A DNA stretch of 45,118 nt from contig JAKADP010000001.1 of NCBI GenBank assembly GCA_021820465.1, positions 1 through 45,118 of the forward strand. The letters are read 5' to 3'. The stretch's first letter is position 1; each line of letters begins with the position of its first letter. A model generated the notes under the pieces. It made no database searches, was not told the DNA's origin, and saw nothing but the letters and a program-made list of their open reading frames with translations. The position numbers were made by a program, and so were the translations under genes. This stretch comes from Bacillota bacterium (GTDB taxonomy: Bacteria > Bacillota > Sulfobacillia > Sulfobacillales > JAIMBI01). Below are positions 14,356-18,425 of the stretch, piece after piece.

Positions 14356-14988
14356 CTATACGCCAAAGTGGGCCAGGCTCTTCATCAGCCAAGGTGTCAC
14401 GACCGCCTGCGTGCCACTGCCGGCCAGGACGGCCACACCCGCCAGCAGGGCCACGGCGCTGTAAGTCCCGAACGACTCCCACAGCCGCCCCCTCCCGCGC
14501 CACGCCGGCCGGCTGAGCAGCTGCCACGAAAAGGCCACGCCCCCCGAGCCGGTGGCCAGCCAAGCTGGCACCAGCAGGAGATTGGGGAGGACGACGGCCA
14601 CCAGCGCGAGTCCCACGCCTGTACTGGGCAGCAGCGTCACCAGCAGGGCCAAGGCGAACCCCAGCACAAACCCGCGAAACAAGACCGCCAGCAGCACCAA
14701 GGGCATACCCGCCACCGACAAACTCAGGATGTAAATGAGGCCCAAGACTTTCAGGTTGGTTCCGGCCGCTGCCAGAAACACGGCACCCGCGGGCAGGCCC
14801 GGCCCGGCTGCGACAGTCACCAGCTCGCGGACCCGAGCCGCCAGCTGCGCCGCCTCCGCCACCGGCAGCACATTGACCGCCAGCGCCCCCAGCAGGGTGC
14901 CTAGGAGAAAGGCCGCCATGACGAGGAGGCTGTAGGGCCGATGCTGGTCCCACCACCGGTCCCAGGTCTCCGCGGCATCCCAGCCCAT
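14356..14988 (-). CDS. spoIIM: Stage II sporulation protein M
   Basis: Multi-pass membrane protein (210 aa), part of the SpoIID-SpoIIM-SpoIIP machine that remodels septal peptidoglycan and drives engulfment of the forespore. A cytoplasmic N-terminus (WDRWWDQHRPY) is followed by about five hydrophobic segments, the first near residues 20-40 (LLVMAAFLLGTLLGALAVNV), with the family stretch LFRGFVLGFALALL in the middle and a C-terminal SLAHFGV. The ATG at 14988 has GGGGGGAGGG upstream. It lies beside xerD as in Bacillus, with ald between. In Bacillus it is a sigma-E (mother cell) gene, consistent with the candidate promoter at 15005-15033. Confidence 0.92.
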   Translation of the reverse strand: MGWDAAETWDRWWDQHRPYSLLVMAAFLLGTLLGALAVNVLPVAEAAQLAARVRELVTVAAGPGLPAGAVFLAAAGTNLKVLGLIYILSLSVAGMPLVLLAVLFRGFVLGFALALLVTLLPSTGVGLALVAVVLPNLLLVPAWLATGSGGVAFSWQLLSRPAWRGRGRLWESFGTYSAVALLAGVAVLAGSGTQAVVTPWLMKSLAHFGV

Positions 14989-15004
14989 CCCATCCCTCCC
15001 CCCG

Positions 15005-15033
15005 ACTGTACGGGCTGGGGCGGCTTTTCATGA
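15005..15033 (-). promoter_or_regulatory. Candidate sigma-E promoter of spoIIM
   Basis: Minus strand TCATGA (15033-15028), 15-base spacer, CGTACAGT (15012-15005), compared with the sigma-E -10 consensus CATACAnT (one mismatch). The predicted start would leave only about ten bases before the spoIIM ATG, barely room for the ribosome site, which weakens the call. Confidence 0.35.
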
Positions 15034-15047
15034 GTCGGACCCGAGGC

Positions 15048-15076
15048 GAATAACTCCCGGCGGCCGGCGTATTCTA
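15048..15076 (+). promoter_or_regulatory. Candidate forespore-type (sigma-G/F) promoter of the MciZ-like gene
   Basis: Plus strand GAATA (15048-15052), a 17-base spacer and TATTCTA (15070-15076). The Bacillus sigma-G consensus is GHATR, about 18 bases, CATNHTA; five of five and six of seven positions agree. Transcription would begin near 15083, 30 bases before the ribosome site. Bacillus mciZ is instead read by sigma-E, so the assignment to a sigma factor is tentative. Confidence 0.4.
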
Positions 15077-15125
15077 CCGGGGGTTGGACGCAGCGAACTC
15101 AGCGCCCCCCACAGGAGGCCTCCAT

Positions 15126-15341
15126 ATGAATGGGCAGCGCGGGGTGTGTGTCGTGGGGTCCAGTCGAGCGGTCGCCCGATGGCTGCACCGCTGGCCACGC
15201 GACTGGACGCTCGGGGATCTGGTGGCAGCCCTCGGCGCGGATGCGCCCTCGCCAGCGCCGGCTCAGTCCTCCAGCGGAATTAGCTCGCGAATCGCCCACC
15301 GATACAATAGGCGCGCTTGGCCGTCGGCATCCGCCACGTAG
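15126..15341 (+). CDS. Small protein, candidate MciZ-like FtsZ inhibitor
   Basis: A 71-residue ORF, the only plus-strand protein gene. It has a textbook ribosome site, AGGAGG seven bases before ATG (15113-15118), and a sporulation-type promoter candidate. Residues 5-35 (RGVCVVGSSRAVARWL, then HRWPRDWTLGDLVAALG) align without gaps to my recollection of Bacillus MciZ, a 40-residue peptide containing GVVLVGKAWEIR. Shared positions are GV, VG, a leucine eleven residues after that glycine, and an arginine, with conservative changes elsewhere. MciZ caps FtsZ filaments in the mother cell during sporulation. The rest (36-71) is Ala/Pro/Ser-rich and overlaps the end of the Hfq-like gene by 79 bases, so the tail may be unstructured. 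Coding status is likely; the MciZ identity is a hypothesis. Confidence 0.55.
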   Translation: MNGQRGVCVVGSSRAVARWLHRWPRDWTLGDLVAALGADAPSPAPAQSSSGISSRIAHRYNRRAWPSASAT

Positions 15342-15637
15342 AGTACGTGGCGGCCCGCGCCCAACAGCTGCGCCGCAAACGGGGGACCCCCTGCCGGAAC
15401 GACCGTGAGGCGCCGACGCTCCTCGCGCCACCGCGTGAGCAGCTGCGTCTCCAGATCCGACGCGTCCGGCCCTGCCCCATCGGCCAGATCCCAAGGGATC
15501 GGATCCTCGGACGGCGTCTCCTCGAGGGCAGCGGAGGGCTCGGGACCCAGCGCCCCTTCGGCAGGCGGCCCCTCGCGCTCTTCGTCCCGGGCCCCCCCCT
15601 GCGAGCCGACCCGCACCCAGCGCGGACCGACGCTCAT
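15263..15637 (-). CDS. Hfq-like (LSm-fold) small protein
   Basis: A 124-residue protein. Residues 1-60 are acidic, Pro/Glu-rich and probably disordered. Residues 61-124 follow the Hfq pattern: helix LETQLLTRWREER (Hfq LQDQFLNQLRKER), strand RLTVVPAGGPPFAAQL (Sm1, VTVFLLNGxxLxGQ), HVLYVADADGQ, then LLYRWAIRELIP (Sm2, YKHAISTxxP). The characteristic KH of the Sm2 motif is RW here, so it is a divergent paralogue or relative, not a canonical Hfq, whose gene normally sits beside miaA. Hfq-type rings bind RNA; whether this one does is unknown. The ATG at 15637 overlaps the stop of the preceding gene (ATGA), implying coupled synthesis. Its 3' end overlaps the convergent MciZ-like gene. Confidence 0.6.
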   Translation of the reverse strand: MSVGPRWVRVGSQGGARDEEREGPPAEGALGPEPSAALEETPSEDPIPWDLADGAGPDASDLETQLLTRWREERRRLTVVPAGGPPFAAQLLGAGRHVLYVADADGQARLLYRWAIRELIPLED

Positions 15638-16383
15638 CGAAAGTAGTCCTGGGGCAACACCGGCGGCGGCGGCGGATAGCGAAGCGTCCGCTCGTACGCA
15701 TCCATGGTCGCTTCGACGGCTGCACGCTGGATGTCCCCGCGCACCAGCGCCACTCCCACCGCCAAATCTTCCTTTTGGCGCCAATTTAAGAAGGCCAATC
15801 CGACGTTCAAGACGGTCTGGTCCCCCAGCCGGCACTCCACCACCCCGCGAATGGCGATGGTCGACGTGATGCCCGGCACCTGCTCAATCGCGTTGACCAC
15901 AGCCGCCGCCAGCGCGGTGGCATGCTGGCTGGGCAAGTTGCGGCCCAGAAAGCGGCCCTCGATCAAGCGCTGGGGGTCATGGGCGAACATGCAGGTGACC
16001 CCCGCGGTCAGCAGGCCCGTTTCCTTATCAAGATCCATGCGAAAGCTTTGGACCTGCAACTCGCCCAGGTCCAGATACTCCTCCATGCCCCGGACCTGAG
16101 CCACCGAGATGCGCTTGTGGTCGATGCGGATGGCCCACTTGGCGGCCAGCAGGCTCTCGATGTCGCGCACCACCTGCTTGGCGGCGCGCCGATCGGTCGC
16201 CAGCACATGCACTTCCTCAATGTATCCCACATCATTCACCGTCACGCGGGCCCGATGCACCCCCGGCAACTTGGTCAGCAGATCCTCGATGTCGTCCACC
16301 GACACCCGCTCGGCCTCGGGCGCACGCGAAGCGCCGCCCTCCGCCTCCGGCTCCGCCGGCGGCTCAGTGGTGCGCTTGGCCAT
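15634..16383 (-). CDS. Conserved protein of unknown function, partner of the Hfq-like gene
   Basis: A 249-residue, probably cytoplasmic protein with no signal or membrane segment. After a charged Pro/Glu-rich leader (1-28) comes a first domain (about 29-100) reading SVDDIEDLLTKLPGVHRARV, VGYIEEVHVLAT, KQVVRDIESLLAA, IDHKRISVAQV. A second domain (about 112-235) contains VPGITSTIAIRGVVECRLG and VGVALVRGDIQRAAVEATMDA, ending in a proline run and DYFR. I recognise the first pattern as recurring in uncharacterised proteins of Actinobacteria and deep Firmicutes, but know of no function. ATG 16383 has GGAGGGG upstream. It sits 19 bases after leucine dehydrogenase and is coupled by ATGA overlap to the LSm-like protein, suggesting that the two act together. 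Confidence 0.8.
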   Translation of the reverse strand: MAKRTTEPPAEPEAEGGASRAPEAERVSVDDIEDLLTKLPGVHRARVTVNDVGYIEEVHVLATDRRAAKQVVRDIESLLAAKWAIRIDHKRISVAQVRGMEEYLDLGELQVQSFRMDLDKETGLLTAGVTCMFAHDPQRLIEGRFLGRNLPSQHATALAAAVVNAIEQVPGITSTIAIRGVVECRLGDQTVLNVGLAFLNWRQKEDLAVGVALVRGDIQRAAVEATMDAYERTLRYPPPPPVLPQDYFR

Positions 16384-16402: not shown

Positions 16403-17464
16403 TTATTCGGGGAGATACGTCCGCCGCACGCGGCCAATCTGCTCGAGCCGCGCCAGTGCCAGGCGGTCGGCCGCCTCGTAGGTTGGAATATCTTCCTCCT
16501 CGGCGATCCGTATCACTTCCGCTACTTGCTGTCCAATTTGTGCCACCCTTTTATACGCTCGATCGTGGTGGTATCCGTCCGGGTGTAACTCATCAGCCAC
16601 ATTGACCACCCCGCCGCCATTAATGACGAAGTCCGGGGCGTACAGGATGTGTCGAGCCCGGAGCGCGTCGCCGTGCCGAGGCTCCTTCAGCTGGTTGTTC
16701 GCGGAGCCGGCCACAATCCGGCACGCCAGCCGCGGGATGGTCTCATCGTTCAAAATCGCCCCCAAAGCGCAGGGAGCAAAAACATCACACGCGACATCAT
16801 AGATGGCGTCCGGCTCCACGACGGCCGCCCCCAGCTCCTGGGCCATGCGCTCGGCGTGCGCGGGCGTGATGTCCGCCACCGTGAGCTGGGCCCCTTCCTC
16901 ATGCAGCATGCGGGCCAGCGCGGCCCCCACGTGTCCCAGCCCCTGAATCGCCACATGGCGGCCCTGGAGTGACGGCGACCCGTACACGTGCGCCACCGAC
17001 GCCTTGATCCCTTCCAGCACCCCCAGCGCCGTCGCCGGCGACGGGTCGCCGCTGGTCTCCTTCAATCCGCCCACGAACTGCGTCTCGCGAGCCATGGTCT
17101 CAATGTCTTCGGCGTTGATGCCCACGTCCTCGGCGGTGATGTACCGCCCCCCGAGGCTCTCCACCAAGCGGCCAAAGCTGCGCAACATAGCCTCTGACTT
17201 GGGCGCATCCGGCTCAGCCCAAATAACCGACTTGCCGCCGCCAAGATCCAGGCCCATCGCCGCGTTCTTAAATGTCATTCCCCGCGAGAGGCGCAGGGCG
17301 TCGGTCAGGGCCTCTTCTTCCGTCGCGTAGTGCCACCGCCGGCATCCTCCCAGCGCCGGCCCCATCGAGGTGTCGTGAATGGCCACAATCGCCCGGAGCC
17401 CCGTGGTGCGGTCGTACCAAAACACGACCTCCTCGTGGCCGTGCTCTCGCATGGCATCGAACAC
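16403..17464 (-). CDS. bcd: Leucine (branched-chain amino acid) dehydrogenase
   Basis: NAD-dependent oxidative deaminase (353 aa) of the Glu/Leu/Phe/Val dehydrogenase family. The N-terminal domain holds IHDTSMGPALGGCRRW, the substrate lysine in RGMTFKNAAMGLDLGGG (K66) and the catalytic lysine GGGKSV (K78), at the LeuDH positions. ITAEDVGINAEDI and IQGLGHVGAALARML (NAD-binding Rossmann) follow. Length and N-terminus favour LeuDH over Glu or Phe dehydrogenase. The GTG at 17464 gives the family N-terminus but lacks a close ribosome site; AAAGGAG is 24 bases upstream. In Bacillus, bcd is in the bkd operon downstream of the spo0A region; here it stands alone before the Hfq-like pair. Confidence 0.93.
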   Translation of the reverse strand: MFDAMREHGHEEVVFWYDRTTGLRAIVAIHDTSMGPALGGCRRWHYATEEEALTDALRLSRGMTFKNAAMGLDLGGGKSVIWAEPDAPKSEAMLRSFGRLVESLGGRYITAEDVGINAEDIETMARETQFVGGLKETSGDPSPATALGVLEGIKASVAHVYGSPSLQGRHVAIQGLGHVGAALARMLHEEGAQLTVADITPAHAERMAQELGAAVVEPDAIYDVACDVFAPCALGAILNDETIPRLACRIVAGSANNQLKEPRHGDALRARHILYAPDFVINGGGVVNVADELHPDGYHHDRAYKRVAQIGQQVAEVIRIAEEEDIPTYEAADRLALARLEQIGRVRRTYLPE

Positions 17465-17627: not shown

Positions 17628-18425
17628 CTAGCTCGCCTTCATCTGCATACGCAGCCGGTCCGCCACCATGGCGATAAATTCCGAGTTCGTGGGCTTTCCC
17701 CGATCGCGGTTCACGGTATGCCCAAAGATGCTGTTGATCACGTCCACGTTGCCGCGGCTCCACGCCACCTCGATCGCATGGCGGATCGCCCGCTCCACCC
17801 GACTGGGGGTCGTCTTATACTGCACCGCAATCGCTGGATACAGCTCCTTGGTCACGCCCGACAGCAGGTCCACCCGCTCAATCACCATGATGATGGCATC
17901 CCGCAGGTACAGATAGCCCTTGATGTGCGCCGGAATGCCAATCTCGTGGATGATGTTCGTCACCTCAATGTCGAGATGCCGGACGGGCAGCATCTGCACC
18001 TTGGTCCCGGTCGACATGCCGAAGTTCCCCACCGGCCGCCGATCCGCCGCGACCGTCCCGCCCAGCTGCCGAATCCGGGCCGCCAGCACCTTCAAGTTGA
18101 ACGGCTTCAGAATGTAGTAGTCCGCGCCCAGCTCCAAGGCGCGCTGCGTCATCGTCTCTTGGCCAAACGCAGTCAGCACCAGCACCTTCGGCCGGTCCAC
18201 CGGGTCAACGTCGGCCAGTCGCTCCAGCACGCCGACCCCGTCCAGGTGGGGCATGATGATGTCCAGCACCACCACATCCACCGCCGTCGCCGACAGAAAC
18301 TCCAGCAAATCCACCCCGTGGTGAACCGTCCCCACCACTTCTAGTCCCTCTTCGGCGGAGATGGCTTCCTGCAGCATGTCGCAAAATTCCCGGTTGTCAT
18401 CCGCTATCAGCACTCGCGTTGGCAC
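17628..18425 (-). CDS. spo0A: Sporulation master regulator Spo0A
   Basis: Phosphorelay response regulator (265 aa) that commits the cell to sporulation. The receiver domain (1-120) has the acidic pocket (LIADDNREF), phosphoacceptor D55 in VVLDIIMP, Thr in LTAFGQ and Lys in YILKPF. After a short linker, the C-terminal Spo0A DNA-binding domain (about 150-265) shows the family stretches [50 protein letters not shown] and [22 protein letters not shown] start at 18425 with GGAGGGG eight bases upstream. In Bacillus it follows spoIVB directly; here three other genes intervene. A sigma-H-like promoter is visible upstream (18470-18497). Confidence 0.98.

Follow-up and report, generated by a model that had tools for sequence, protein, structure and literature searches.

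A divergent, putatively Hfq-derived Sm protein encoded beside a conserved partner gene in the Sulfobacillus-type order of Bacillota

Hfq is a textbook global regulator. Its uridine-pocket residues (Q8, F/Y42, K56 and H57) and its rim patch are described in PMC5379935, and the acidic C-terminal tail of E. coli Hfq competes for the basic rim (PMC5606850). The Hfq of cyanobacteria takes part in pilus formation together with PilB and EbsA (PMC10989914). PMC11607428 distinguishes a classic Hfq clade, with miaA as its gene neighbour, from a mobile clade to which the cyanobacterial proteins belong, and finds Borrelia FlgV, once called Hfq, to be unrelated. In the literature, of which our coverage was partial, we recognised no prior report of the gene pair described below or of a Sulfobacillus Hfq.

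The locus and the 124-residue protein

The window, that is, the whole stretch of 45,118 nucleotides that was analysed, carries on its minus strand, in this order, spo0A, a dehydrogenase gene, a gene for a 249-residue protein, a gene for a 124-residue protein and spoIIM. The features are as follows.

14356..14988, minus strand: spoIIM gene (TIGR02831 over cut-off; PF01944)
15263..15637, minus strand: gene for the 124-aa putatively Hfq-derived Sm-fold protein, including stop codon (ORF and translation, purifying selection, predicted fold)
15275..15463, minus strand: predicted Sm domain, residues 59-121, helix and five strands (model, Foldseek, VIA, residue table)
15464..15637, minus strand: N-terminal acidic low-confidence extension, residues 1-58 (composition, dN, pLDDT)
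15634..15637, minus strand: ATGA stop-start overlap (sequence)
15634..16383, minus strand: 249-aa partner gene, including stop codon (ORF; family in 41 of 42 order genomes)
15670..16071, minus strand: predicted partner C-terminal LeuA-type regulatory domain, residues 105-238 (model, Foldseek, VIA, profile-profile comparison)
16087..16305, minus strand: predicted partner N-terminal alpha/beta domain, about residues 27-99 (model, conservation over 83 members, VIA)
16403..17464, minus strand: Glu/Leu/Phe/Val-type dehydrogenase gene, directly upstream of the partner gene (Pfam ELFV_dehydrog over cut-off)
17628..18425, minus strand: spo0A gene (Pfam Spo0A_C and Response_reg)

A reading made from the sequence alone (hereafter the sequence-only reading) had described the 249- and 124-residue genes as a coupled pair. 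We found both open reading frames at the positions given there, on the minus strand, and the stop codon TGA of the 249-aa gene (15634-15636) overlaps the ATG of the 124-aa gene (15635-15637) to give the ATGA on which the proposed coupling was based; coupling by overlap is supported for the window's genus. A 4-nt start-stop overlap occurred in 11 of 30 order loci, i.e., the ATGA-type overlap is not general; locus L167 was excluded from this count, as its overlap opens another frame and its Sm gene begins 18 nt downstream. A promoter and terminator scan returned no promoter-like site and one terminator-like site, as compared with 0.5 and 2.1 in shuffled sequences, and since these counts are no higher than in the shuffles, the scan did not locate the transcript boundaries. 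The best NCBIfam match of the dehydrogenase was the tryptophan dehydrogenase ScyB, below the ScyB cut-off.

The Sm part of the 124-aa protein showed dN of 0.05-0.20 against dS of 0.25-2.06 (six pairs from four species of the genus); on these substitution rates, it is under purifying selection. The extension of about 58 residues, recognised as acidic in the sequence-only reading, does hold 13 D/E against 4 K/R; it is poorly conserved and changes fast among the four species (dN 0.14-0.94, dS 0.32-1.05).

The window protein by itself gave no Pfam or NCBIfam match at E values up to 10, and its sole match in the PDB sequences at E ≤ 10 was B. subtilis Hfq over residues 61-121 (E 0.98), which is suggestive, not significant by itself. 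A profile of 22 relatives, collected as neighbours of partner homologues, retrieved Hfq from E 4.7e-11 in the PDB, with the first 35 rows all Hfq; 17 of the 22 members have a Pfam Hfq match at E ≤ 1, the window protein being among the 5 without. A profile of six sequences of the window's family alone placed Hfq first at E 0.035, and in the search of the PDB with the protein of locus L009 the best row, above the Hfq rows, was an unrelated repeat protein without any single passing stretch. In profile-profile comparisons, the window's family matched the rest of the order at P 1.9e-12 and the rest of the order matched classic Hfq at P 3.5e-14; the direct match of the window's family to classic Hfq reached only P 8.6e-5, and that of the window's genus alone P 3.5e-4, with one control at 0.0019. 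Since the direct match is weak and both intermediate steps are strong, the Hfq assignment runs through intermediates.

In the AlphaFold2 model, for which the alignment included clearer Hfq relatives, residues 59-121 form a helix and five strands, with block mean pLDDT of 92-96 for residues 61-120 and of 46-58 in the extension; the values for the whole chain were a mean pLDDT of 74.5 and a pTM of 0.53. When the model was compared with known structures, all 50 of the matches listed by Foldseek and all 50 of those listed by VIA (Z 11.0-12.4) were Hfq entries, the top VIA match, tied with others, being Synechocystis Hfq. The guess of an Sm/Hfq fold in the sequence-only reading is thereby borne out by structure prediction, which gives an Hfq-type Sm fold for residues 59-121 at a pLDDT of about 96. 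Taken together, we consider it very probable that the 124-aa protein is Hfq-type in both fold and descent.

The residues through which Hfq contacts RNA are altered in this protein. The positions of E. coli Q8, D40, F42, K56 and H57 are occupied by E, G, H, R and W in all four members of the window's genus, and the Sm2 KH is replaced by RW in the same four; the missing KH had already been pointed out from the sequence, and YRWA indeed stands where Hfq has YKHA. In 20 further sequences of family f3, the same five positions hold Q, D, Y, K, and S or Q. KH was retained in two g5 sequences, in G007, G455 and G516, and in eight divergent copies unlinked to the partner. The Sm domain of the window protein carries an Arg-rich helix, RWREERRR, and this richness in Arg is confined to one family. 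The helix of the window's genus has a mean net charge of +1.0 and that of its sister genus one of +2.0, as compared with -1.2 to +0.2 in the other groups, so that the window's family has the highest mean helix charge among the groups compared.

Distribution of the gene pair and descent of the Sm protein

Among the 42 genomes of the order set, the partner family was found in 41. One of these, G013, has only a distant partner paralogue, beside a hibernation-factor gene, and the family was not found in G040 (63% complete); setting both aside leaves 40 genomes with a partner of the window's type. The Hfq-like gene lies beside the partner gene on the same strand in 35 of these 40 (34 from gene positions, and G031 through locus L185) and is missing there in G001, G010, G011 (equated by position with locus L188), G016 and G017, five loci that span three genera only. 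In the A2 searches at most 31 candidates per genome were scored; the L034 row of A2 starts within the gene, and its full-length version stands in A3. Outside the window's genus, the Sm proteins share 13-39% identity with that of the window, and the adjacency is still kept.

A scan of named genomes (the best 80 of 300 partner relatives) showed an Hfq-like domain downstream on the same strand in 31 of 80 loci, of which 30 belong to the order and one (L183) matches G455. The genomes scanned include Sulfobacillus thermotolerans Kr1, S. harzensis, S. benefaciens and S. acidophilus, and because the named members include Sulfobacillus species, we call the order 'Sulfobacillus-type'. Beyond the order, the pair was found within the class in G455 and G516, which belong to other families. 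No Hfq match was present within about 1.5 kb on each side of any of 27 partner loci outside the order, nor at any of 17 further partner loci of the class outside the order, the genomes overlapping with those of the 27-locus set. Thus, on the co-occurrence that the sequence-only reading had proposed as a check, the two families are adjacent in 35 of the 40 order genomes with the partner and in G455 and G516. Its idea of a partner dedicated to the Hfq-like protein is not supported, as the partner family occurs in 159 of 398 phylum genomes and none of the 27 and 17 loci outside the order has an Hfq match. Since five of the 40 order genomes have the partner without an adjacent Hfq-like gene, and the partner mostly occurs without Hfq, neither gene needs the other everywhere.

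The Pfam model PF17209 scored over its cut-off in 19 of the 42 order genomes, each time at the partner-linked site only; the 42 genomes yielded no further Hfq match that passes the Pfam threshold. Weak partial PF17209 matches elsewhere in these genomes (E 0.06-0.8) were taken as chance. We also considered whether the genome of the window has a classic hfq at another site, and rejected this, as PF17209 found none.

Of 35 named order loci read over about 4 kb on each side, a few of them truncated by contig ends, 32 have nudF, 31 spoIIM, 31 spo0A (detected by its C-terminal domain), 30 the Hfq-like gene and 26 the dehydrogenase gene. In most loci of the order, nudF separates the Hfq-like gene from spoIIM; it was not detected in L160-L162, from three other genomes of the window's genus (cf. 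14989-15262 of the window). Among the 30 loci that have the Hfq-like gene, 26 carry the dehydrogenase gene ahead of the partner gene, as compared with none of the five that lack it (Fisher 4e-4, kinship ignored), a contrast that rests on few lineages. All five order loci without the Hfq-like gene have spo0A, spoIIM and nudF; the link to sporulation suggested in the sequence-only reading is accordingly positional only, since the genes for Spo0A and SpoIIM flank these five loci as well.

To place the lineage, a tree of 63 sequences was built over 61 columns, with 26 open forks, leaving out L102 and L115 as second loci of copies already included. The 24 classic-type sequences fell on one side of a branch with support of 100/100, and the 29 partner-linked sequences of the order formed one group (88/77). 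On the divergent side of that branch were also eight divergent copies apart from the partner (families f172, f177 and f178). These copies, at L103-L110, keep KH and have a different neighbourhood; in the tree they side with the lineage of the window protein, not with classic Hfq. Among the 24 high-scoring sequences, miaA was seen by eye beside the classic copies in L114, L115 and L118 only. A single clade of all partner-linked sequences was not rejected (p-AU 0.46) and not established in this tree with its 26 open forks. On these sequence comparisons, the lineage of the window protein is well separated from classic Hfq. G455, a metagenome bin with 4% contamination, appears to carry two copies, a classic one that follows mutL and miaA (L114) and one linked to the partner (L112), and the main branch of the tree separates them; the GC contents of the two stretches were 0.587 and 0.586. 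The sequence data fit a scenario in which the class had two Hfq lineages and the order kept only the divergent one.

The partner protein

The model of the partner (mean pLDDT 83.8, pTM 0.59) showed an N-terminal alpha/beta domain and a C-terminal part of two beta-beta-beta-alpha units. Foldseek returned four matches at E ≤ 0.001, all of them Mycobacterium tuberculosis LeuA, with low whole-chain TM of 0.30-0.34, and VIA matched an isoleucine-bound citramalate synthase regulatory domain at Z 9.8 over 116 and 114 residues. A profile of 83 partner members compared with 19 LeuA regulatory domains of the order gave Prob 95.2 and P 2.9e-8 over 111 columns, as against P of 0.025 or above in ten unrelated profile comparisons used as controls. 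The two halves of the C-terminal domain match each other at 2.3e-5; in the 83-member comparison, no match was obtained between the second half of the partner domain and the first half of the LeuA domain (P 0.089). A smaller profile of 18 members matched LeuA weakly and over one half only (P 5.5e-4). The window partner gave no PF08502 match at E up to 10, and one relative reached 18.0 bits against the cut-off of 24.9 (E 0.0028, model positions 18-129 of 131). As judged from profiles and predicted structure, the C-terminal half of the partner is a LeuA-type regulatory domain. In the window genome (assembly 96% complete) PF08502 itself was not found; it is over cut-off in 35 of the 42 order genomes. 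The partner family has no name in Pfam or NCBIfam, and the LeuA-type assignment would provide a domain identity for this nameless and widespread family.

The residues most conserved across the 83 members lie in the N-terminal domain (H59, R66, K69, R73, D74, S77 and D88). The one PDB sequence match of the partner profile was EscJ (E 0.51), and with VIA the N-terminal domain matched PrgK domain 2 at Z 8.0, behind metal-transporter and acyl-CoA synthetase domains (up to Z 8.9); the PrgK-like fold is a common fold.

Elsewhere, clostridial loci of the partner family adjoin hibernation-factor genes, which were named by eye; such genes were seen beside partner-family genes in L073, L074, L077-L081 and L119, several of which also lie by secA or membrane-protein genes. 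A probe found the hibernation-factor gene in 7 of 80 named loci (the best 80 of 300 partner relatives). In the class, genes recognised by eye as 2-oxoacid oxidoreductase genes often precede the partner gene (L070, L071 and L112), a hint of amino- or keto-acid metabolism.

Possible modes of action and comparison with known systems

We regard a functional link of the two genes as likely. Joint action of the proteins and the sensing of a metabolite are suggested by the adjacency, by the domain kinship and by the dehydrogenase gene, which comes and goes with the Hfq-like gene. Our working proposal, which as a whole we hold with slightly less than even confidence, is that an Hfq-derived ring works with a ligand-responsive adaptor. 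The Sm protein would assemble into a ring, which would probably be hexameric and would meet RNA, or the partner, via the Arg-rich outer rim RWREERRR, located where E. coli has the RRER patch; we propose contact through this rim because the window's family has lost the uridine pocket. The acidic N-terminal tail may compete for the rim, in the manner described above for the acidic C-terminal tail of E. coli Hfq. We are evenly divided on whether RNA rather than protein is the main client of the ring in the window's genus. The partner may bind a small metabolite in its LeuA-type domain, perhaps an amino or keto acid, branched-chain or otherwise, and the ligand-bound form would change what the ring binds, somewhat like Crc with Hfq in Pseudomonas; that the partner is such an adaptor is possible, though doubtful. 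CodY, a branched-chain amino-acid sensor, is present in all 42 order genomes; no sensor is missing, which rules out the partner as a stand-in for CodY and counts against the need for a new sensor.

One alternative explanation is that the Sm protein is simply the relocated and fast-evolving Hfq of the order, acting as a general RNA chaperone, with the partner as an unrelated neighbour retained by conserved gene order. The order has no further Hfq match over the Pfam cut-off, most of its members keep the pocket Q, Y and K, and some KH, and the block from spo0A to spoIIM is maintained also at loci where the Hfq-like gene is missing, all of which would suit this explanation. However, all four pocket residues are lost in the window's genus, the adjacency persists despite the low identity of the Sm proteins, and G455, though a metagenome bin, appears to hold both classic and partner-linked copies, which argues against a simple relocation. 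We consider this explanation somewhat unlikely.

Loss of the pocket in the window's genus could also mean that the protein has been repurposed as a protein scaffold without RNA binding, like cyanobacterial Hfq, for which PMC10989914 offers a precedent and to which the top listed VIA match, Synechocystis Hfq (tied with others), would point. Against this stand the rim arginines present in the window's family, the part of the pocket kept in most of the order and the cyanobacteria-type model PF21979, which passed its cut-off in none of 151 class genomes and had no match at E ≤ 0.01 in the genome of the window. With the corresponding NCBIfam model, for which the cut-off is 52 bits, two relatives scored 26.2 and 19.1. 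On the PF21979 result we reject membership in the cyanobacteria-type family, and we find the scaffold explanation unlikely. That the gene is a chance open reading frame in a GC-rich stretch, where many open frames do overlap, is ruled out for practical purposes by dN well below dS in the Sm part and by homologues that occupy the corresponding position in other genomes, among them the complete one of Sulfobacillus thermotolerans Kr1 (L175), where the pair is found at about 1.156-1.157 Mb of CP019454.1.

Our proposal remains an Hfq-derived ring working with a ligand-responsive adaptor. Its most far-reaching form, a metabolite-gated Hfq in which binding of RNA or effector by the ring is switched by a co-encoded partner that senses amino or keto acids through its LeuA-type domain, seems to us quite unlikely; if true, post-transcriptional control in these spore-forming acidophiles would be tied to their amino-acid state. 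Apart from mechanism, many genomes of the order have no Hfq that passes the standard Pfam model (19 of 42 pass), and an altered lineage stands instead beside a partner of another family. The graded series from KH-bearing relatives to a genus without the pocket residues also offers a way to probe the loss of RNA contacts.

The LeuA and citramalate synthase regulatory domain (PF08502) shares with partner residues 105-238 two beta-beta-beta-alpha units and a match in both profile and fold. The partner differs in having no catalytic barrel, in the fusion to another N-terminal domain and in being unmatched by PF08502. Pseudomonas Hfq-Crc (PMC6422490) may be analogous, as an Hfq ring and a protein co-regulator are proposed to act in nutrient control; Crc and the partner are unrelated by any test made, and the parallel is a functional inference. 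Cyanobacterial Hfq, as described in PMC10989914, resembles the window protein in its Hfq fold, its lost RNA-contact residues and its protein partner, whereas the partner itself is another one. Unlike FlgV as presented in PMC11607428, the 124-aa protein has a predicted Hfq-type fold, and of the two clades described there, the window lineage is not encoded by miaA in the window and fails the cyanobacteria-type model. With classic Hfq (PF17209, TIGR02383; e.g., B. subtilis Hfq), the window protein shares the predicted helix and five-strand Sm fold and, through its relatives, profile kinship. In contrast, it scores below the cut-offs of both models, is without the KH and pocket residues of classic Hfq, and bears a long acidic N-terminal extension that classic Hfq does not have; its gene adjoins those of the partner and SpoIIM instead of miaA. 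Because the curated cut-off is not reached and both KH and the pocket are absent, we do not file the 124-aa protein as classic Hfq; the computational evidence supports an Hfq-derived Sm protein of a lineage apart from classic Hfq.
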